Assembly: GCA_016926755.1 (NCBI GenBank)
Contig: JAFGNZ010000091.1
Location: forward strand, 1-44,043
Direction of reading: 5' to 3'
Source: Myxococcaceae bacterium
Lineage (GTDB): Bacteria > Myxococcota > Myxococcia > Myxococcales > Myxococcaceae
DNA length: 44,043 bases
Within the stretch, counting starts at the first letter, position 1. Each line of letters opens with the position of its first letter. The position numbers were made by a program, and so were the translations under genes. The notes beneath the pieces are model-generated. The model searched no databases, was not told where the DNA came from, and saw nothing but the letters and a program-made list of their open reading frames with translations. This document shows, in pieces, positions 14,936 to 41,695 of this stretch.

Positions 14936-16753
14936 TCAGTGCGTGGACTCGGACTGGAGCCGTACGCGCAGCGGAGGCCCGACGGACAAGGGCGGCAGCT
15001 GGGAGACGGACACCGTCGCGGAGCCGCTCATGGAGATGGCGGCGCCGCGCACCTCGGAGGAGCACGTGGAGGCGTTCTCCGCCACGAGCTGAGCCTCCAG
15101 GTGGGAGTCGGCGCCCAGCTCCACCTGCTCGTGCGCCATCACCACCGCGCTGGTGCCACAAGTGTGGACGCGAGCGAGGCTCCCGCGCAGGCCCAGGTCC
15201 CTGCCCGCCAGCAACACGAAGCCCTTGGGGCTCGCGGGGCGGAAGGAGAGCGCGCCCGTCTCATGGAGGATGCTCCCGGTGGCGATGAGGCTCACGCGGT
15301 AGGCTGGATCGGCGCCGAGCGCCATGCAGTCGGGCGTCTCGAAGCCGCGGAAGCGGACGTTGCCCTCCACGAACCAGACGCCCCGGGGCAGCAGGGCCCC
15401 CGTGGACGTCGGGAGGTACTCGAAGGTGACGTTGCGCAGATCCCTCCGCCCGAAGCCGGAGCGCTCAGGGTAGAGGGCGGTGTCCGCCGCCTCGCAGCCA
15501 GGAGCGCCGGAGGTGAAGCCGGAGGCGCCGTCTGCCTGCCACACGCGCGGCGCCTTGGCGGCGGAGACGCTCAGTGAAGGGGTCGTGCTCCGAAGGCCCG
15601 GATCCGAGTCCGAGACGTGGATGTCCAGGCTCGCCTTCGCCGGGTTCGCGTCGAGCGGCACCCAGCACGCCACGCACTCGGAGGGGCTGCAGATGCGCGG
15701 GCTCGAGCGCGGGGACTCGCAGGCGGTGTAGTTCCACCCATACAGCCGAGCCATGGCCGAGCTCTCATCCAGCCGCAGGTAGTAGAAGGGGGTGCAGGGC
15801 GCCTGGATGCAGTTCTGTGGAGCGTTGGTGACATCCCACGGGGACACGCGGGGCGGAGGAGGTACGAACACGCCGGAGGAGCACACCTCCCCTGCCGTCA
15901 CCCGCCTCGAGGTGGCCGAGCACACGGCTCCACCACTCTGAGCGATGCAGGCCTCATCCTTGCCACAGCGGTTCCACAGAGGCCCCGCGGAGCAGGCCGC
16001 GCCGCACAGGCACCCGCCCTCGATGGAGCCCGTCGCCACCACGTCTCCGAACGGGCCGCATACGTGCGCGGAGCCCTGCATCCTCACGGTGCCACCGGCG
16101 ATGATGCCGGCCGGATCGCCCGGCCCCAGAAGCACCCGCAGCGTGTGGCGCGCGGAGTTGTCCTCGAGGCTCGTCCCTGGGTGGACGCCGATGACCGTGA
16201 CCCACACCATCGAGTCCCGATCCCGCACGGGGTTGTTCCGCGCAGGGCCCAGGTCAAGCCCCTCCAGGCAGCCCCCCAGCGGGCTGTTCGTCGTGGCGGG
16301 GGCCAGGAGGAAGGAGTCCTGCGCGTCATCGTCGTTGTCGTCGATGCGCACGAAGTACGCCCCCTCCTGGCCCGGGAGGACCACGCGCAGGTAGGCCTTG
16401 CCACTGGAGGGGGCGACGACTGGCTCTCCGTCGGAGAAGGGCGGCAGGTGATCGTCCGAGGTGACGCCCCCGAGAGACGGAAGCCCGAGACAATCGGTGT
16501 CCAGCCCCGGATCCAGGGCCCGATCGAGGTCCACGTCCCGCTCCAGCAGCGCCCCGAGGTGCGCGCGCGTGCGCTCCAGGCCCGCCTCGGCGAGGGCCCG
16601 CGCCTGGGCGTCGCTGCGCTCGAAGGCCGCGGTGATGCCCTCATCCCCCGCGCGCTGCTGCGCCACCGCCACGAGCAACACCAGGGCCGCGAGCAGCAGC
16701 AGCACGGCGAGCAGGATGTAACCGCGAGCGTGACGCGAGGAGGAGGCAGGCAC
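14936..16753 (-). CDS. pilX: PilX-like minor pilin with large C-terminal domain
   Basis: A 605-residue protein, several times longer than classical PilX (about 200). The N-terminus is prepilin-like (RG followed by YILLAVLLLLAALVLLVAVA) and continues into the PilX N-terminal helix, FERSDAQARALAEAGLERTR. Residues about 235-350 contain many Cys, suggesting disulphides. The C-terminal third (GVWFVEGNVRFRGF..., IATGSILHETGALSF) looks like a beta-helix or polymer-forming repeat. The start is GTG 16753 with AGGAG seven bases upstream, 9 bp after the pilW stop. As the last of four pilin genes it probably sits at the pilus tip complex. The enlarged domain may replace the missing PilY1 adhesin (inference). 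The absence of Glu5 after the cleavage site agrees with a tip position. Confidence 0.75.
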   Translation of the reverse strand: MPASSSRHARGYILLAVLLLLAALVLLVAVAQQRAGDEGITAAFERSDAQARALAEAGLERTRAHLGALLERDVDLDRALDPGLDTDCLGLPSLGGVTSDDHLPPFSDGEPVVAPSSGKAYLRVVLPGQEGAYFVRIDDNDDDAQDSFLLAPATTNSPLGGCLEGLDLGPARNNPVRDRDSMVWVTVIGVHPGTSLEDNSARHTLRVLLGPGDPAGIIAGGTVRMQGSAHVCGPFGDVVATGSIEGGCLCGAACSAGPLWNRCGKDEACIAQSGGAVCSATSRRVTAGEVCSSGVFVPPPPRVSPWDVTNAPQNCIQAPCTPFYYLRLDESSAMARLYGWNYTACESPRSSPRICSPSECVACWVPLDANPAKASLDIHVSDSDPGLRSTTPSLSVSAAKAPRVWQADGASGFTSGAPGCEAADTALYPERSGFGRRDLRNVTFEYLPTSTGALLPRGVWFVEGNVRFRGFETPDCMALGADPAYRVSLIATGSILHETGALSFRPASPKGFVLLAGRDLGLRGSLARVHTCGTSAVVMAHEQVELGADSHLEAQLVAENASTCSSEVRGAAISMSGSATVSVSQLPPLSVGPPLRVRLQSESTH

Positions 16754-20243: not shown

Positions 20244-21304
20244 GGCCACAGCCCCGGCTCGGCGAGCGTGGTGCGCTCGTCGAAGCCCATCATGACGTTG
20301 AAGCTCTGGATGGCCTGGCCGGCGCCGCCCTTGACCAGGTTGTCCAGCGTGGAGAAGCAGACCACGCGGCGGGTGTCCCCGGTGACGGGGCCCAGCGTGA
20401 AGCCGACCTCCACGTAGTTGCTGCCGGAGACGCCGACCACCTCGGGCTGCCGCCCGCCGCCGATGATGCGGATGAACGGCTCCTTGCCGAAGGTGTCCTT
20501 CCAGAGCGCGTCCAGCTCCTCCTGGGTGGTGGAGGCCGGCACGTCCGCGAAGGAGGTGGCGAAGATGCCGCGCGGCAGGGGCGCGGAGACGGGGACGAAC
20601 TCCAGCGAGAGATCCTGCGCGGCGCCGGCGTTGTGCAGCGTCTGGAGGATCTCTGGGATGTGCTGGTGCTCGAGCGGCTTGTAGGTGCGCAGGTTGCCGG
20701 CACGCAGCGGGTGGTGGGTGGTGATCTGCGGGTTGGCGCCGCTGCCCGAGGAGCCGGTGGCGGCCACCGTGTGGACGGGGCCGCGGAGCTTGCCTCCCCT
20801 GGCCAGGGGCAGCAGGCCCAGGGCGATGGTGGTGGCGAAGCAGCCGGGGCTGGCGATGTAGCGCGCCTGGCGGATGGCCTCGCGGTTCAGCTCGGGCATG
20901 CCGTAGACGAAGGTGCCGTCGGTGAGGTGCTGGGGCGCGGGGTGGGGGACGCCGTAGTACCTGGCGTAGGCGGCGGGATCCCTCAGGCGGAAGTCGCCGG
21001 ACAGGTCGACGATGCGCACGCCCGAGGTGAGGATCTCCATCACCACCTTGGCGGTCGTCTTGTGGGGCATGGCCAGGAAGACCACGTCCGCGCCGGCGAC
21101 CGCCTCGGCGGGGGCGAGCTGCTGGAAGGTGAGCTCGGTGAGGCCGGCGAGGTTGAGGTGGACCTCGCCCACCTTCTTGCCGATGTTGTCCACCGCGGTG
21201 GCGCGGATGACGTCGACGCTCGGGTGGAAGAGGAGCCGGCGGAGGATCTCCGCGCCGCCGTAGCCCGTACCACCGATGAGAACTGCCTTGACCTTGTTGG
21301 CCAT
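20240..21304 (-). CDS. argC: N-acetyl-gamma-glutamyl-phosphate reductase
   Basis: ArgC reduces N-acetylglutamyl phosphate to the semialdehyde with NADPH, the third arginine step. The 354-residue protein begins with the nucleotide-binding loop IGGTGYGGAE (10-19) and contains the catalytic Cys155 in IASPGCFATTIALG. AGGAG stands nine bases before ATG 21304. argC precedes argB as a coupled pair (GTGA). No other arginine genes are nearby, so the pathway is split. The intergenic 21305-21416 is 112 bp and may carry the promoter; no obvious ARG box is seen. Confidence 0.95.
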   Translation of the reverse strand: MANKVKAVLIGGTGYGGAEILRRLLFHPSVDVIRATAVDNIGKKVGEVHLNLAGLTELTFQQLAPAEAVAGADVVFLAMPHKTTAKVVMEILTSGVRIVDLSGDFRLRDPAAYARYYGVPHPAPQHLTDGTFVYGMPELNREAIRQARYIASPGCFATTIALGLLPLARGGKLRGPVHTVAATGSSGSGANPQITTHHPLRAGNLRTYKPLEHQHIPEILQTLHNAGAAQDLSLEFVPVSAPLPRGIFATSFADVPASTTQEELDALWKDTFGKEPFIRIIGGGRQPEVVGVSGSNYVEVGFTLGPVTGDTRRVVCFSTLDNLVKGGAGQAIQSFNVMMGFDERTTLAEPGLWP

Positions 21305-30323: not shown

Positions 30324-31814
30324 TCAGGTCTTGGGACGAGCCACGCCGCCCTTGCGCTTCAAGTGGAGGCCCTTGAGATATAGATCCCCTACATCTACCC
30401 GCCCATCTGTTCGAGTGGAGGCAATGCCCAACTCCACTAAGTAGTCCAAAAGAGCATCGGGCTCGATATCGGGTGGACGATGCCCTTCCGGCGACCAGTT
30501 GATCTGGAGTGCTCGCACCATTTCCCGACGCTCCGCGGGCACGCGCGGAGGGGCTTCATCGAAGGCTTTCTGGACGAGGCGAATCCAAGGAAACTCCTCT
30601 TGGGCGAGTTCATTCACTCGGAACTCGGAGACACGATCCAAGCCAACTCGCAGCGAGGTATAGTGGATAAGATTGGGGCGTTCAGCTCGTGGTGATCGTT
30701 TCTCGCTGTTGGCAGCCTCCTCGATCAGACGGAGGGCAGATCTCGGGAAAATGCGGTCATGACCATCCTTGAGGTGATTTGGGATCCACCGAAGTGTGAG
30801 TCCTTTTCGCGGATCCGTTCCCATATACTCACCAAACATGTGCTTGACCGCACTGGAGAAAGCCTTCTCATCCTGCACTGCGGGAATCCACCCGAGGAAC
30901 TCATCCTCTTCCTCCTGGAGTTTGGCCCGGCTGAGATATTGCTTCATCCCCTCACTGACATTGAGGAGGCGTTTGAAGAGCAGCCGGTAGATGTCTCCTG
31001 GGCTCCAGAAGAGATCCGCCGGGTGCCAAGCGATCTTCGCAATATCAGGCCCCCGCAGAGCGGCCCTCTCATAAAGATCCCTGCGCAGGAAGATCTTACA
31101 TCGAATACGCTGCCACCTGCGCGAATATATCGCCCAGAGTTGGATGAGCCCCTGGAGAGCCACCTGAATGACACTCCACTTTCCAGGGCTGACACGATCC
31201 AGGTCGTCGTAGACGATGAAGACGTATCGATCCTCTTGCATCAACTGGCGATCTAACTCGTCTAGCGCTTCAAAGAGTACCCCCTGGCTCCTGGCGCCCC
31301 CCACAGCCCTCGCGAGCGTGTCGAGGTCATAAGCAGCCCGCTGGAGTACTTGCCCCACCTCATCTGGCAAGGAACTCCCGTCTAGCCGGCCATCCTGCAC
31401 TAGCACATGTGCCAAAAGCCCCAGCCAGAGGAGGCGCAATTCCTCCGCTCCCCGTCCGCGAGCATAGGCATCAATGAGGTCCGACGCGGGAAAGAGCGAA
31501 CCCGTGGTCTCAAAGCCGACGATCCAGGAGGAACGCTCCAGTGGAAGCGTTCCATGGCCACGGCTTGCGGCGATCCGGGCTAACAGTCTGCGCCCCTCGG
31601 GAAATTTCAACGCCTTAAAGAGCTGCGTCTTGCCCGCGCCCTTATCACCGATGATGAGGCGTACATGGGGGTCCAGAGCGCGCAGGTGTCGTGGAATTGG
31701 GAGGAACTCCCGAAAAAACTCCCGAGCCTCCTCAGGTGCATGATCAGCTACGCCCTGGCCGCAAGCCCTGATGACATCATCCAGCAACGCATCTGCTTGT
31801 TCGACCCTCTTCAT
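30324..31814 (-). CDS. P-loop ATPase, Sll1717-like, third gene of HEPN-ATPase-ATPase trio
   Basis: A 496-residue protein with Walker A GDKGAGKT (56-63) and Walker B VFIVYDDLD (198-206), in the arrangement I associate with the Sll1717-type P-loop ATPases (related to KAP/STAND NTPases). The segment after Walker B (FLRRDLYERAALRGPDIAKI) carries candidate sensor residues. The last 150 residues look like a winged-helix-rich domain ending in a basic tail, LHLKRKGGVARPKT. Its start overlaps the KGGVGR-ATPase stop by 4 bp (ATGA). It may be the effector or a switch that responds to the upstream ATPase. Codon use is visibly less GC-rich than the flanks. Confidence 0.8.
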   Translation of the reverse strand: MKRVEQADALLDDVIRACGQGVADHAPEEAREFFREFLPIPRHLRALDPHVRLIIGDKGAGKTQLFKALKFPEGRRLLARIAASRGHGTLPLERSSWIVGFETTGSLFPASDLIDAYARGRGAEELRLLWLGLLAHVLVQDGRLDGSSLPDEVGQVLQRAAYDLDTLARAVGGARSQGVLFEALDELDRQLMQEDRYVFIVYDDLDRVSPGKWSVIQVALQGLIQLWAIYSRRWQRIRCKIFLRRDLYERAALRGPDIAKIAWHPADLFWSPGDIYRLLFKRLLNVSEGMKQYLSRAKLQEEEDEFLGWIPAVQDEKAFSSAVKHMFGEYMGTDPRKGLTLRWIPNHLKDGHDRIFPRSALRLIEEAANSEKRSPRAERPNLIHYTSLRVGLDRVSEFRVNELAQEEFPWIRLVQKAFDEAPPRVPAERREMVRALQINWSPEGHRPPDIEPDALLDYLVELGIASTRTDGRVDVGDLYLKGLHLKRKGGVARPKT

Positions 31815-33118
31815 GGCCCTGTCCTGCCCAGCCGCTCAAGCAGCCATGTGGAGAAGGCTTTGTAGTCCCCCTGCGTCAGAGGTGTCACCATGTCCCTCAG
31901 TGCGCGAGCGCGCTGGAGTTCGCTATCGAAACCGATGGCGAAGGAATGATGTGGTCGGGTTGCATCTTCGATGGCGGGTACCGGCCACTCCCCATTGGGA
32001 TCCGCATCGTAGAAGCGATCAGTGAAGAGTTGATACGCTCGGTCGATGAACTGCTCGACCCGGGCCTTGCGTGCTGGGTCCGTGCTGGGCGGCGCCATGG
32101 CGTAGACCAGAGCGCAGTCCTGCTGGGCCCTCTCCATCTCAATGCGGCGCCGTCCGAGATGGTCGACCACAATGCCGACTCCTTCCCAACTCTGCTCGCT
32201 ATCCAACCCGAAGAGTACATCGAGGTGAGCAATGCCGTTGAGCGCCAGCCCACCAATGTCATGCAACCCCGCGCGAGAATCAATCAGCACGTAGGCTGGA
32301 GCACGGTCACTCCGGAGTTGGCGAAGCAGATCCAGCAGTGGTGGCTCCGGAGCCTCGGGCCGTAAAATCCGCTCGTAATCTACGCGAGCAAGCTTCTCAA
32401 GGTAGAGTGCGTCTACATTGCCTGCAGGCACCACCGTAATGGGGGCTCCCTCCCCAATGATATCAGGGTCGTCACAGATGAAGAAGTAGTCCCCCAAGCT
32501 TAAACGGCGGCCTTCGTACAAAGGGCGTTCAAGAAGGTAGTCGATAAGCCCACACGGAGCTCTCGCAGCACTGGAAGCGAAGAGCGACCCTGCCCCCGGC
32601 GCCTCAAGATCCAAATCGATGACGCAGACACTCTTCCCCGCCCGAGCCATCTGGATAGCAAAGGCGGCTAGCGCAGTGGTGCGGCCTACCCCTCCCTTGA
32701 ACGAAAAGAAGGAGATGATTGGGGCCATCTGCGGCCGCAAGAGCCAGGGTGGGTCGAGTGGAGCACCGAACCAGGTGGCTTTGGACAGATGTCTATCCAA
32801 CTCTCTCAGCTCGAAGTTGGGGCCTTGGACTGGAAGAGCCTGACTCCAAGCCTTATCGTAAACGAGCCGCTCCGCTGTATCGAGCGAGTCGTGCCAAACC
32901 CAGCACTCATTTCCCCAGAAGCCTTCAGCCGCTCGCTGCAGGGCCGCGCGGAGGTCGGCCTCAAGCGCGCTCGCGTCAGCACCTGCCACAGGCTTGACCA
33001 GGATACGAAGGCGTCCTCGAAGGTCCCAGATGAGGCATGCCCGCTCTAGCCGCCCACCCCACGCAGTCTGGGAGAGTTCCTGGACAGCATCCCGTCGGGC
33101 CTCTGCGAAGTGCTTCAT
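31811..33118 (-). CDS. ParA/MinD-like ATPase with KGGVGR P-loop
   Basis: A 435-residue protein. Residues 1-125 form an N-terminal alpha/beta domain (IWDLRGRLRILVKPV, GNECWVWHDSLDTAERL) of unknown type. Residues 130-430 form a deviant-Walker ATPase: KGGVGRTT (141-148, with Arg where ParA/MinD has Lys/Thr), SVCVIDLDLEAPG and a later YVLIDSRAGLHDIGG segment. I recall this as the KGGVGR-motif variant AAA ATPase group, associated with conflict systems. It overlaps both neighbours by 4 bp (ATGA), so the three proteins are probably made in fixed ratio. The signal sensed is unknown. Confidence 0.8.
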   Translation of the reverse strand: MKHFAEARRDAVQELSQTAWGGRLERACLIWDLRGRLRILVKPVAGADASALEADLRAALQRAAEGFWGNECWVWHDSLDTAERLVYDKAWSQALPVQGPNFELRELDRHLSKATWFGAPLDPPWLLRPQMAPIISFFSFKGGVGRTTALAAFAIQMARAGKSVCVIDLDLEAPGAGSLFASSAARAPCGLIDYLLERPLYEGRRLSLGDYFFICDDPDIIGEGAPITVVPAGNVDALYLEKLARVDYERILRPEAPEPPLLDLLRQLRSDRAPAYVLIDSRAGLHDIGGLALNGIAHLDVLFGLDSEQSWEGVGIVVDHLGRRRIEMERAQQDCALVYAMAPPSTDPARKARVEQFIDRAYQLFTDRFYDADPNGEWPVPAIEDATRPHHSFAIGFDSELQRARALRDMVTPLTQGDYKAFSTWLLERLGRTGP

Positions 33119-33564
33119 GGGTTCAATGCTCCACTGCCATCAAGGATCGCCTCCACCATGACGCGCTCGTACACTTCAGCGGCTCCTGTCACCATGAGAT
33201 CTCCATCAACGACGGCACCGGTCGGAAGATAGCGCAGGTCCGGCCTCCAGACGGACACCATCTGTGGCAGCAGGGGGATATCATCAAACCGATAACGGGT
33301 TGCCCCCGGCGATAGGATGGCGGCCAGTACCAGGGCCTGACCACTCAAGCGCCGGAGATCATGCCCGTACTCTCTGGCACCGTGACCGTGGATTTCCAGC
33401 AACCTCTTCAGCGCGCACTCGACTACGTAGCCTGCTAAGTATGCGGCATTGTCGAGCCGCTCCGCAGCGAGGAGTGTGCGTGCATCATGCAAGTGGCGGC
33501 GTGCGGCCGATCCGTAGTCTTCCTCAAGCGTCTTGAGCCCGAGCTTCCCTCTGCCTTGAGTCAT
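33115..33564 (-). CDS. HEPN-domain protein
   Basis: A 149-residue protein dominated by the HEPN helical fold: YGSAARRHLHDARTLLAAER, then LDNAAYLAGYVVECALKRLL and EIHGHGAREYGHDL. A candidate R-x4-H nuclease motif is R54...H59, with a GHDL turn at 67-70. HEPN proteins are commonly RNases or partners of nucleotidyltransferases in toxin-antitoxin and defence systems. It is the first gene of the trio, starting at ATG 33564, and overlaps the next gene by 4 bp. The 127 bp upstream to the RT stop carry a small hairpin (GGCAC/GTGCC at 33665-33680). The catalytic status is inferred. Confidence 0.8.
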   Translation of the reverse strand: MTQGRGKLGLKTLEEDYGSAARRHLHDARTLLAAERLDNAAYLAGYVVECALKRLLEIHGHGAREYGHDLRRLSGQALVLAAILSPGATRYRFDDIPLLPQMVSVWRPDLRYLPTGAVVDGDLMVTGAAEVYERVMVEAILDGSGALNP

Positions 33565-33691: not shown

Positions 33692-35254
33692 TCAGAACAG
33701 CTTCCACCACTTCTTCTTCGCGGGCGCACCCGGGCTGGCAGGCTCGCCTGACTTCGGCTCCTCCCCCAAGCGGGCTCCACTCGGCGGGGCTGCCGCCGTA
33801 CCTGCCTGCGCGGGCGGCGCGGCCTTGCGCCTGGGGGGCACCACCGCCTTGCGGCCGTACTTCTTCTCCAGCGCCCGGGCCTGCTCCAGGAACACCCGGC
33901 CCTTCGTCGGATCCACCATCATCACGTAGTTGGCGAAGCCCACCGCAGAGGCGATGACGTCCGTCGAGCCGTTCCACGTCCTGCCCTCGGGCCCGCTCTT
34001 CTCGAGCTGGTGCAGCAGCGCTCGGAAGCGCCGCAGCGTCTCCCGATCCACGCCGGGCTTGTCGTTGACGACGATGCCCGTCACCTCCTGCTGCCGGCCG
34101 CGCCGCAGCACCCGCGTCTTCTCCGGGTGCGGGACGAAGCCCTCCTTCTGGATGACGAACCGCACCAGCCGCAGCAGCTTCCCCACGTCCCCCGGCCCAC
34201 CCGGAGGCAGCGAGAACGTCAGGTCATCCGCGTAGCGCGTGTACGTGAAGCCCAGCTTCCGCCCCACCCCCTTCAACCGCCGATCGAGCCGCTGGCACAG
34301 CAGGTTCGTCAGCGCCGGAGAGGTGGGGGCCCCCTGCGGCAGCCGCCGGCCTCCCTGCGCCACGTAGTACCGCTGCCCGTCCAGCTCCACCTCCTCGAGA
34401 TCCGGCTCGGTGCACAGCAGCGCCAGCGCCGTGGCCGTCGCCTCGCTGTACCCCAGCTTCACGAAGAAGCCCTTCACCCGCGGGTACACCACCGTGGGGA
34501 AGAAGTCCTTCAAGTCCAGGTTCACCACCGCCGCCGCGCCCACGTGCGGCAGCGCGTTGGTGACGATGGAGCGCCCCGGCCGGAAGCCGTGCGCCGCCTC
34601 GTGCATGGGCAGCTTCTCCAGCAAATTCTCCAGCACCCAGTGCTGCGCCGCCTTCAGCCGCGGCAGGGGCGCGGAGATGATGCGCAGGCCTCCCGTCTTC
34701 TTCCGCAGCGCGAAGCGCACGTAGTTCGTCCGCGTGGACACCGTCCGCGCGAAGCACAGCCCCCGCAGCTGCCCCACCGTCATCCCCAGCGCCTGCGCCA
34801 GCACCTCCGGCGTCTCCAGCTTCGGCAGCCCCTGGCGCTCCAGCTTCGCCACGTCCGGCGTGCGGTGGCTCAACCCGCCCGACACCCCGCGCCCCAGGAA
34901 CAGGAGCTCCTTGGCCTTGCGCGCCTTCCACGCCTCCGCCCGCGCCACCCGCTCGCGCTCGCGCCGCTCCTTCGTCTCCTGCTGCTTGCGCCGGCTCTCC
35001 GCCAGCCGCTTCTTGCGCAGCTCCTTCTTCAGCCGCTCCAGGTTCCCCAGCCGGCTCTGCTCGGTCGTCAGCGCGCGGAGCTGCGCCCTCAGGTCCGCCT
35101 TGCGGTGCAGCTCGTCCGCCGGATCCCCGGGCACGCCGCTGCGCGCGGGCCAGAAGCCCAGCCGCACCATCTCCTCGAAGATGACCTCCTCCTTGGAGGT
35201 CTCCCGGATGCGGTCGTACAGCTCCTGCCGGTTGCGGGGGGGTTGTTGGGCCAT
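33692..35254 (-). CDS. Retron-type reverse transcriptase
   Basis: A 520-residue reverse transcriptase. The retron/group II-like core spans about 170-440: NLDLKDFFP with the catalytic Asp, RRLPQGAPTSPALTNLLC, YADD at 341-344 and the retron-typical VTG at 391-393 (EVTGIVVND). The first 170 residues are an extension typical of the long myxobacterial retron RTs such as Mx162: an N-terminal helical region and a heptad-rich basic segment (KELRKKRLAESRRKQQETKE). The last 55 residues are Pro/Ala/Lys-rich. The gene is immediately downstream of the structured RNA at 35287-35517. Its start ATG 35254 is 33 bases from the a2 end of that RNA. RT makes msDNA from the RNA by cDNA synthesis primed by a branch G. 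Confidence 0.92.
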   Translation of the reverse strand: MAQQPPRNRQELYDRIRETSKEEVIFEEMVRLGFWPARSGVPGDPADELHRKADLRAQLRALTTEQSRLGNLERLKKELRKKRLAESRRKQQETKERRERERVARAEAWKARKAKELLFLGRGVSGGLSHRTPDVAKLERQGLPKLETPEVLAQALGMTVGQLRGLCFARTVSTRTNYVRFALRKKTGGLRIISAPLPRLKAAQHWVLENLLEKLPMHEAAHGFRPGRSIVTNALPHVGAAAVVNLDLKDFFPTVVYPRVKGFFVKLGYSEATATALALLCTEPDLEEVELDGQRYYVAQGGRRLPQGAPTSPALTNLLCQRLDRRLKGVGRKLGFTYTRYADDLTFSLPPGGPGDVGKLLRLVRFVIQKEGFVPHPEKTRVLRRGRQQEVTGIVVNDKPGVDRETLRRFRALLHQLEKSGPEGRTWNGSTDVIASAVGFANYVMMVDPTKGRVFLEQARALEKKYGRKAVVPPRRKAAPPAQAGTAAAPPSGARLGEEPKSGEPASPGAPAKKKWWKLF

Positions 35255-35286
35255 GACGCTCTCATGAAGAGAGGGGAGGGTTCGTC

Positions 35287-35517
35287 CACGCGGCGGTCCA
35301 AGAGCACCTTCGTACAGCTCTCAGGACTGGCTCGTCTCTACTCAAGCCGTGGCCCCTACCACGTGCGATATGGATTTACGGAATCCACACCGCCATACGC
35401 ACGTGGTAGGGAGACACGGCACAGTCAAGAGCGGGCCAGTGAAGCATCACAGGCCAGGAGGCAAGGACGGCGAAACGCCGCCCGGGTTGCAAGGTACTGC
35501 CCTCTGACCGCCGCGTG
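35287..35517 (-). ncRNA. Retron msr-msd RNA
   Basis: Read on the minus strand, a1 (35517 to 35506, CACGCGGCGGTC) is perfectly complementary to a2 (35298 to 35287), 12 bp. After a1 come msr hairpins: GGGCGGCG-ttt-CGCCGTCC (35483-35465, 8 bp, one G-U) and GGCC-t-GTGA-tgct-TCAC-t-GGCC (35455-35434). The msd is a long stem: GCCGTG/CACGGC (35420-35415 with 35351-35346), a perfect 14-bp stem (35411-35398 with 35367-35354) and a TGGATT/AATCCA apical hairpin (35387-35382 with 35376-35371). The branch G is probably just inside a1 (about 35504). Only 17 bp separate a1 from the upstream stop codon. Confidence 0.88.
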
Positions 35518-35534
35518 CGCGAACCCTCCCTTCT

Positions 35535-40270: not shown

Positions 40271-41695
40271 TCAGCTCACCAGCTTCTTGATGTCGCCGTA
40301 GGCGCGGTAGAAGCCACCGCGCGAGGACTCGCGCACGCCCTCCACGACGTAGCGGGAGCCCGCCTCGCGGATGTCCTTGGGGAACTGCACGTGCCAGCCC
40401 TTGTTGTAGCCCGGGGACACCACGCGCACGCGGAGGCCGCCACCATCCTCGTAGCACTCGACGATGACGCCCGAGCCCGCGCTGCGCGTCGTCTCCACCG
40501 TGCCCACCTGGGCGGTGGCCAGGGGCTTGGGGGCCTTGACGGTGATGGGCTTGGGCAGGGTGCCCTTCTGGGCAGCCTGGATGGCGGCCTCGCTCGCGTC
40601 GATGCAGGCCAGCGAGCCATCCGTGGTGACGATGTAGAGCCGGTCCTTGAAGAACTGCATGGAGAAGGCCGAGCCGCAGCCGGTGGACAGCTTCCACAGC
40701 CGCTCACCCTTCTGGTTGAAGCAGTAGATGCTGGACATGTTGTCGCCGGCGAAGACGTACTTCCCGTCATCCACGGCGGCGCAGGAGAACACGGCCGAGT
40801 CGCACTTCATCACCGGCCCCGCGTCCCCCTTCTTGGAGAAGCGGTGCACATGGCCGGTGCTGGTGCAGGCGTAGATGGAGGACTCCTCCTGCCAGCCGAA
40901 CATCACGTGGCCGTTGGTGGGCTTGGACCAGATCTCGGAGCCATCCTCCCAGTCGTACATGGTCACGCCCTTGGCGTGGCCGTGATACATGCCCACCTCG
41001 TCACAGCGCACCATCCACGCGTGGGTGCCCTTGCTCTGGCGGGTCCACACGCCCTCGTCCTCGTGGTTGATGGCGGTGAGCTTGCCGTTGGCGTCGGACA
41101 CGCCGAGCACGGCGTCCTTGATGTCGATCCAGAAGATGTCGACATCCTCGGCGATGGCGTACGCCTTGCGAGGCACCTTGCCGCCGAGATCGTACACGTT
41201 GCCATCGTCACAGCCGGCATAGAGCCAACGGTCATCGGCGACGATGCACTTGACGCCCTCGGGGAGGCGGAACTGGTCGAGCACCTTGCCGTCATGGCTG
41301 AGCGAGTAGATGCGACCGCTCTCGTTGCCGACCCAGCAGCGCGCCTCGTCCACGAAGATGCCGAAGGCGCGGTCGCCGGTGCCGAACTTCCAGAGGATGG
41401 GGGCCTGGGAGGCGGAGGAGGTGCCGCTGGTGATCTCTCGGCGAGTAATGGAGCGCTTCTTGCGCACGCCCTGCACGGCCGGCGCGTAGCCCTTCTTGGT
41501 CTTCTCGGCGATCTTCTTCTGCGCCTCGGCGAGGGCCTTGTCGGCGCTGGGGAAGTCAGTGACCTTGAGCTGGCCGGAGTCCCCGATGCGGCCGAAGCGG
41601 ATGGAGAGCTTCTTCCCCTCCACCTTCACCTCATAGAACTTGTGCGAGCTACCGCCGTCTTCCGAAAGCTCCAGGTACGTCAGCTGATCAGCCAT
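40271..41695 (-). CDS. WGR-domain beta-propeller protein, first gene of the retron operon
   Basis: A 474-residue protein. Residues 1-75 form a WGR domain (KFYEVKVEGKKLSIRFGRIG, F34-G35-R36-I37-G38). A Lys/Arg linker (VRKKRSITRREI) leads to a beta-propeller of about six or seven blades from residue 100 to 380, with PQQ/WD-like blade ends (DGKVLDQFRLPEG, GERLWKLSTG, GSLACIDASE). The last 90 residues are a separate small beta domain. It lacks a signal peptide, so it acts in the cytoplasm. It heads the operon and shares a WGR domain with the next gene, suggesting they dock on the same DNA or RNA. This gene is not part of the type XIII set that I remember. Confidence 0.8.
   Translation of the reverse strand: MADQLTYLELSEDGGSSHKFYEVKVEGKKLSIRFGRIGDSGQLKVTDFPSADKALAEAQKKIAEKTKKGYAPAVQGVRKKRSITRREITSGTSSASQAPILWKFGTGDRAFGIFVDEARCWVGNESGRIYSLSHDGKVLDQFRLPEGVKCIVADDRWLYAGCDDGNVYDLGGKVPRKAYAIAEDVDIFWIDIKDAVLGVSDANGKLTAINHEDEGVWTRQSKGTHAWMVRCDEVGMYHGHAKGVTMYDWEDGSEIWSKPTNGHVMFGWQEESSIYACTSTGHVHRFSKKGDAGPVMKCDSAVFSCAAVDDGKYVFAGDNMSSIYCFNQKGERLWKLSTGCGSAFSMQFFKDRLYIVTTDGSLACIDASEAAIQAAQKGTLPKPITVKAPKPLATAQVGTVETTRSAGSGVIVECYEDGGGLRVRVVSPGYNKGWHVQFPKDIREAGSRYVVEGVRESSRGGFYRAYGDIKKLVS

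Follow-up and report, generated by a model that had tools for sequence, protein, structure and literature searches.

How does a segment of a retron RNA come to stand as a spacer in a CRISPR (clustered regularly interspaced short palindromic repeats) array of the same genome? The question is raised by a retron of a Myxococcaceae bacterium (GenBank assembly GCA_016926755.1), located in the 44,043 nucleotides of contig JAFGNZ010000091.1 (positions 1 to 44,043, forward strand) that were analysed here as one window. The msr-msd non-coding RNA (ncRNA) of this retron precedes a reverse transcriptase (RT) gene, and its msd part would be copied into multicopy single-stranded DNA (msDNA). When the ncRNA was compared with its own genome, a further exact match, 35 nt long, appeared on another contig (C84, positions 21196-21230), and this match is a CRISPR spacer. 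Together with three spacers of a sister species, it suggests that Cas4-Cas1/Cas2 captured the folded msDNA of type XIII and Mx162-like retrons as spacers, a reading to which we assign a probability of roughly 70 %.

The spacer of the source genome follows one arm of the msd stem at 35 of 36 positions, with a single mismatch (C for T) at the 36th and last base. Its array comprises 64 repeats and 63 spacers and belongs to type I-G, as given by a cas operon encoding Cas3g, Csx17, Csb1 and Csb2. Since the repeat orientation, the degenerate repeats at the far end and the position of the cas operon place the leader beside the msd spacer, this spacer is the newest of the array. Of a Cas4g/Cas1g fusion, no more than the C-terminal 119 residues are encoded, beginning directly at the trailer end (C84, positions 16258-16617), which reflects either a deletion or an assembly join.

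A search of 96 genomes of the family pointed to the sister species (genome G041). Two of its spacers, #73 and #153, match the same msd place of its own orthologous retron; their lengths are 37 and 36 nt, and their distance within an array of 275 repeats is 80 spacers. Using the other retrons of four genomes as queries added spacer #142 of the sister species, which stems from the msd stem of its own Mx162-like retron, while the other retrons of the remaining three genomes (G000, which is the source genome, G040 and G042) retrieved no matching spacers. The repeat of the sister species' array differs from that of the source genome and ends in TTGAGCAC in transcript sense, as MxI-B repeats do (PMC11237760), and its leader is adjoined by a MYXAN-type Cas4-Cas1 fusion and Cas2. 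By repeat and adaptation genes, the array is of the myxobacterial MxI-B type. In total, four spacers from three msd stems were found in two genomes and two CRISPR subtypes, and the msd spacers were confirmed to lie between CRISPR repeats beside cas genes in both arrays. Pattern searches of the 96 genomes with the other msd arm and the Mx162-like stem base yielded no additional spacers, although the stem-base pattern runs beyond the stem and could not have detected #142. As an outside control, the msd of the retron Eco1, which has an exact match in 48 E. coli genomes, occurred in no spacer of 5,426 E. coli genomes. An exact tandem duplication of eight repeat-spacer units (spacers 51-58 and 59-66) is present within the array of the sister species on its contig C5. 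The idea that #73 and #153 are copies arising from this duplication was rejected, as both lie outside it and differ in length.

The ends of the spacers carry information on the form of the donor. Spacers #73 and #153 match the msd up to the base of the stem and then continue with the sequence of the opposite hairpin arm (CATC): they start with CATCACTGG, whereas CAGGACTGG stands in the contiguous chromosomal arm and ATG followed by CATCACTGG in the opposite one. The two spacers thus begin directly after an ATG in the opposite arm, where the contiguous arm has TCT, and ATG is the preferred protospacer-adjacent motif (PAM) of MxI-B systems (PMC11237760). Their PAM-side ends are identical and their far ends differ by one base, as a length ruler would give. 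Spacer #142 has bases of the 5' arm at its base end and a base of the 3' arm at its loop end, in RNA terms. A prespacer formed by a hairpin of complementary DNA (cDNA) should mix the arms because its 3' ends are integrated and the gaps are then filled; the DNA's 3' arm should supply the base end and its 5' arm the loop end. In RNA terms, such a spacer would agree with the 5' arm at the base and with the 3' arm at the loop. The observed polarity is that of the cDNA strand, while the opposite would be predicted for an RNA-sense hairpin. Overall, the end pattern is hairpin-like with a PAM in #73 and #153, hairpin-like without a PAM in #142, and not hairpin-like at the base end of the source genome's spacer.

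The number of retron-derived spacers also exceeds expectation. At the rate of the other self-matching spacers and with an even spread, about 0.001 spacers would be expected from the approximately 1 kb of msd in the two genomes, but four were seen. Among the 103 of 337 spacers covered by the comparison, about four others match their own genome, and these are scattered: three are exact, located in or near queA (source genome), in a T2SSE ATPase gene (sister species) and beside an enolase-superfamily gene, and one near a ParB gene has two mismatches. Established at the level of sequence are the retron, the spacer identity in both genomes, the mixture of arms in three of the spacers and the ATG beside two of them. 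We infer the synthesis of msDNA, for which the spacers are indirect evidence, and, from the enrichment, the arm mixture and the PAM, its role, rather than that of chromosomal DNA, as the donor.

The proposed course of events would be as follows. The retron RNA would fold via its a1/a2 arms and be primed from a G just inside a1, and reverse transcription would give an msDNA with a long hairpin as its DNA part. Given the abundance of msDNA, myxobacterial Cas4-Cas1/Cas2 could occasionally take the folded stem as a prespacer. One end of the stem would be fixed at a PAM in a single-stranded 3' overhang and the other by the length ruler; gap filling after integration would then leave the opposite-arm sequence at the base end of the spacer. 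An attack on the retron locus through the stored spacers is improbable, since the genomic copy has no PAM and, in the sister species, also mismatches seed positions 3 and 4. As the spacers should spare the retron, they would be by-products of abundant msDNA and not a means of regulation.

Several observations weigh against this interpretation. The evidence consists of four spacers in only two genomes, #73 and #153 possibly share ancestry, and none was seen in the ten further genomes that carry this retron. The arm mixture rests on few bases, namely two in #73 and #153 and one to three in #142, and #142 is flanked by TGG where ATG or WTB is expected (TTG lies one base off). The spacer of the source genome is unmixed at its base end, where, apart from one mismatch, it agrees with the contiguous arm; it shows the pattern at the loop end only. 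No I-G PAM (TTV) adjoins the protospacer at the source genome's retron locus, where TGG stands in its place; an inference of the I-G PAM from the self-matches of this array gave no consistent motif. Furthermore, the source genome may no longer acquire spacers, given that only the C-terminal piece of its Cas4-Cas1 remains.

The strongest competing explanation is a chromosomal hot spot, in which the msd inverted repeat is extruded at replication and cut, and its fragments are captured by Cas1-Cas2 without any reverse transcription. A hairpin from the cDNA-sense chromosomal strand would yield the same arm mixture, and the 263 kb sampled contain few strong inverted repeats, the Mx162-like msd stems being the strongest. 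However, the type XIII msd is only a moderate chromosomal inverted repeat (score 14), yet it is the source of three of the four spacers, and no spacer derives from the a1/a2 repeat at this locus. In addition, msDNA is present in many copies and a chromosomal hairpin is not. A hot spot is therefore considered unlikely, while deserving more weight than any other alternative. Ordinary self-acquisition from linear chromosomal DNA, with the mismatches as later mutations, would fit the agreement of the source genome's spacer with the contiguous arm, the presence of other self-derived spacers in these arrays (the queA and T2SSE ATPase spacers above) and the many genome-targeting spacers reported for myxobacteria (PMC11237760). 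It is very improbable in view of the enrichment described above, the position of the mismatches at spacer ends, where in the sister species they equal the hairpin partner, and the lack of an MxI-B PAM beside #73 and #153 on the contiguous arm; moreover, of the four other self-matching spacers, three are exact over their full length. Finally, normal immunity against a phage, plasmid or other strain with a similar retron can be given hardly any credence: the mismatch in the source genome's spacer is the base of the Archangium orthologues, so that a foreign allele is conceivable, but every spacer matches the allele of its own genome best or equal best, GATG follows CCAGT in no known allele, and searches for a mobile donor were negative for relatives of the ncRNA in 50,697 phage records and, by pattern, in IMG/VR, and gave among 72,556 plasmids a single weak match of 72 % on a Methylobacterium replicon.

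The capture of msDNA presupposes that the RNA is a genuine retron RNA, as had been proposed in the first-pass annotation from the sequence by eye. This identification is borne out by the neighbouring genes, which match PADLOC type XIII profiles, and by 12 loci of the family at which orthologous ncRNAs show this layout. The perfect 12-bp a1/a2 stem exists (35287-35298 paired with 35506-35517, minus strand) and is longer than first described, with 9 further bp outward of this core up to 35528/35275; around it, a repeat of 37 nt is 84 % complementary (35270-35306 and 35498-35534). The 14-bp perfect helix was likewise recovered (35354-35367 and 35398-35411), as part of a longer imperfect msd stem, and the RNA does lie on the RT strand directly upstream of the RT gene, which starts 20 nt past the end of a2. 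Of the two short msr hairpins that had been described, the UUU-loop hairpin is sound and the second is weak (3 bp, around 35453-35462). The suggestion that the RNA sequence is probably new holds at the species level only, as orthologues within the genus are 92-93 % identical. The minimum free energy of the ncRNA is -153.6 kcal/mol compared to -104.3 +/- 4.8 for shuffled sequences (z = -10.35), and none of 200 shuffles was as stable. The 12 orthologous RNAs share the same fold, and changes on both sides keep the pairing in 13 of 84 pairs, 12 of which lie in the msd stem. The compensatory changes, whose absence had been named as a refutation, are therefore present in the msd stem, while the a1/a2 core is silent in this respect because it is invariant in the relatives. 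A search of Rfam, including the msr family RF00170, assigned no family to the ncRNA at the gathering threshold and gave only chance matches at E-values up to 10.

The coordinates of the retron and its parts are collected in Table 1. Judged by its genes and RNA, the locus is an ordinary type XIII retron, a bacterial defence element of a known class; the next-best PADLOC profile for the RT scored 323 bits. The ncRNA sits between the SWIM-protein gene and the RT gene. RT, SWIM and WGR-HEAT genes are kept together in Archangium, Nannocystis, several cyanobacteria and Saprospira, with the same positions in close relatives, and at some other cyanobacterial loci the RT alone was found in the DNA examined. 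The WGR-propeller gene may be a fourth component of the retron. Directly downstream of the RT gene, a HEPN protein and a ParA-like ATPase (31811-33564) match the PADLOC candidate defence pair PDC-M28A/B; in none of the relatives checked was this pair seen next to the retron.

Table 1. Features of the type XIII retron in the window
Feature	Position	Strand	Basis or remark
Retron RT, 520 amino acids, type XIII; YADD, NALPH and VTG motifs	33692..35254	-	PADLOC RT_XIII, 613 bits
SWIM zinc-finger protein, 548 amino acids	35535..37181	-	PADLOC SWIM_XIII, 775 bits
WGR and HEAT-repeat protein, 1032 amino acids	37171..40269	-	PADLOC WGR_XIII, 1127 bits
WGR and beta-propeller protein	40271..41695	-	Adjoins the retron in 6 of 6 close relatives checked
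a1 arm of the ncRNA	35506..35528	-	12-bp perfect core 35506-35517 and 9-bp outer part
a2 arm of the ncRNA	35275..35298	-	Pairs with a1
Predicted priming guanosine	35504	-	Within GTCAG at the inner edge of a1; unchanged in 12 relatives; assigned by comparison with known retrons
msr hairpin, 8 bp, UUU loop	35465..35483	-	Fold
msd stem-loop including the 14-bp helix	35326..35440	-	Fold; 12 pairs with changes on both sides
Predicted msDNA (cDNA strand), about 160 nt	35299..35461	+	Ends from a1/a2 position and Mx162 size (PMC6868368)
msd segment identical to the leader-proximal spacer (C84, 21196-21230)	35324..35358	+	Spacers #73 and #153 of the sister species map here too

By kinship, the retron is placed in the group of the myxobacterial retrons Mx162 (Mxa1) and Sa163 (Sau1) (PMC6868368). 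With these and other type XIII retrons of PADLOC, it shares an RT with a long N-terminal extension, the SWIM and WGR-HEAT proteins, an ncRNA between the SWIM and RT genes, long a1/a2 arms, an msr hairpin with a UUU loop and one long msd stem. It is nevertheless distinct from Mx162-like retrons, forming a separate ncRNA group and having the extra WGR-propeller gene alongside. Mx162-like retrons occur on other contigs of the source genome, which encodes two further related RTs with their own ncRNAs. Tandem pairs of msr-msd copies precede a single RT in the Mx162-like retrons of four genomes (G041, contig C15; G040, contig C1; G010, contig C17; and G095, contig C71); in the first two, which were read, the copies have the same flanks and different msd stems. 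Across eight Mx162-like loci, one of them on contig C76 of the source genome, the msd stems pair almost perfectly within each species and are nearly unrecognisable in sequence across species, whereas the stem base and the surrounding RNA are constant. The plasmid match mentioned above (Methylobacterium bullatum, PLSDB, NZ_LR743510.1:344138-344325) covers 74 % of the ncRNA (36-224) and presumably represents another type XIII-like retron outside the myxobacteria.

The closest known counterpart is the engineered Retro-Cascorder (Bhattarai-Kline et al. 2022), in which, according to the description in PMC11394691, reverse-transcribed retron DNA likewise becomes a CRISPR spacer through Cas1-Cas2. 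As outlined there, it uses engineered barcodes and two single-stranded DNAs annealed to a duplex, while here a natural and apparently self-folded msDNA and Cas4-Cas1 fusions of two other subtypes would be involved. RT-Cas1 fusions, for example that of Marinomonas mediterranea, acquire spacers from RNA (PMC11014452), so that reverse transcription feeds a CRISPR array in these systems as well; there the RT is fused to Cas1, whereas here the RT is part of an unrelated defence system and the fusion partner of Cas1 is Cas4. The self-targeting spacers of myxobacteria also match the host genome, but the donor here appears to be extrachromosomal cDNA. The survey describing them (PMC11237760) does not mention retrons or msDNA, and no natural msDNA-derived spacer was found in the open literature, subscription papers being outside the scope of this search.

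The spacers described here would apparently be the first natural example of reverse-transcribed retron DNA acquired by CRISPR. It is unlikely that msDNA is a regular and physiologically meaningful donor to myxobacterial CRISPR adaptation, such that phage-triggered msDNA would be written into the array and one defence would record another. If the capture of msDNA is correct, it would account for some of the self-matching spacers by naming their source, imply that Cas4-Cas1 is able to use an intracellular DNA hairpin as a prespacer, and provide a genomic fossil of natural msDNA production by a retron. Since Myxococcus xanthus carries both an MxI-B CRISPR system and Mx162, the link between the two defence systems would be testable in this organism.
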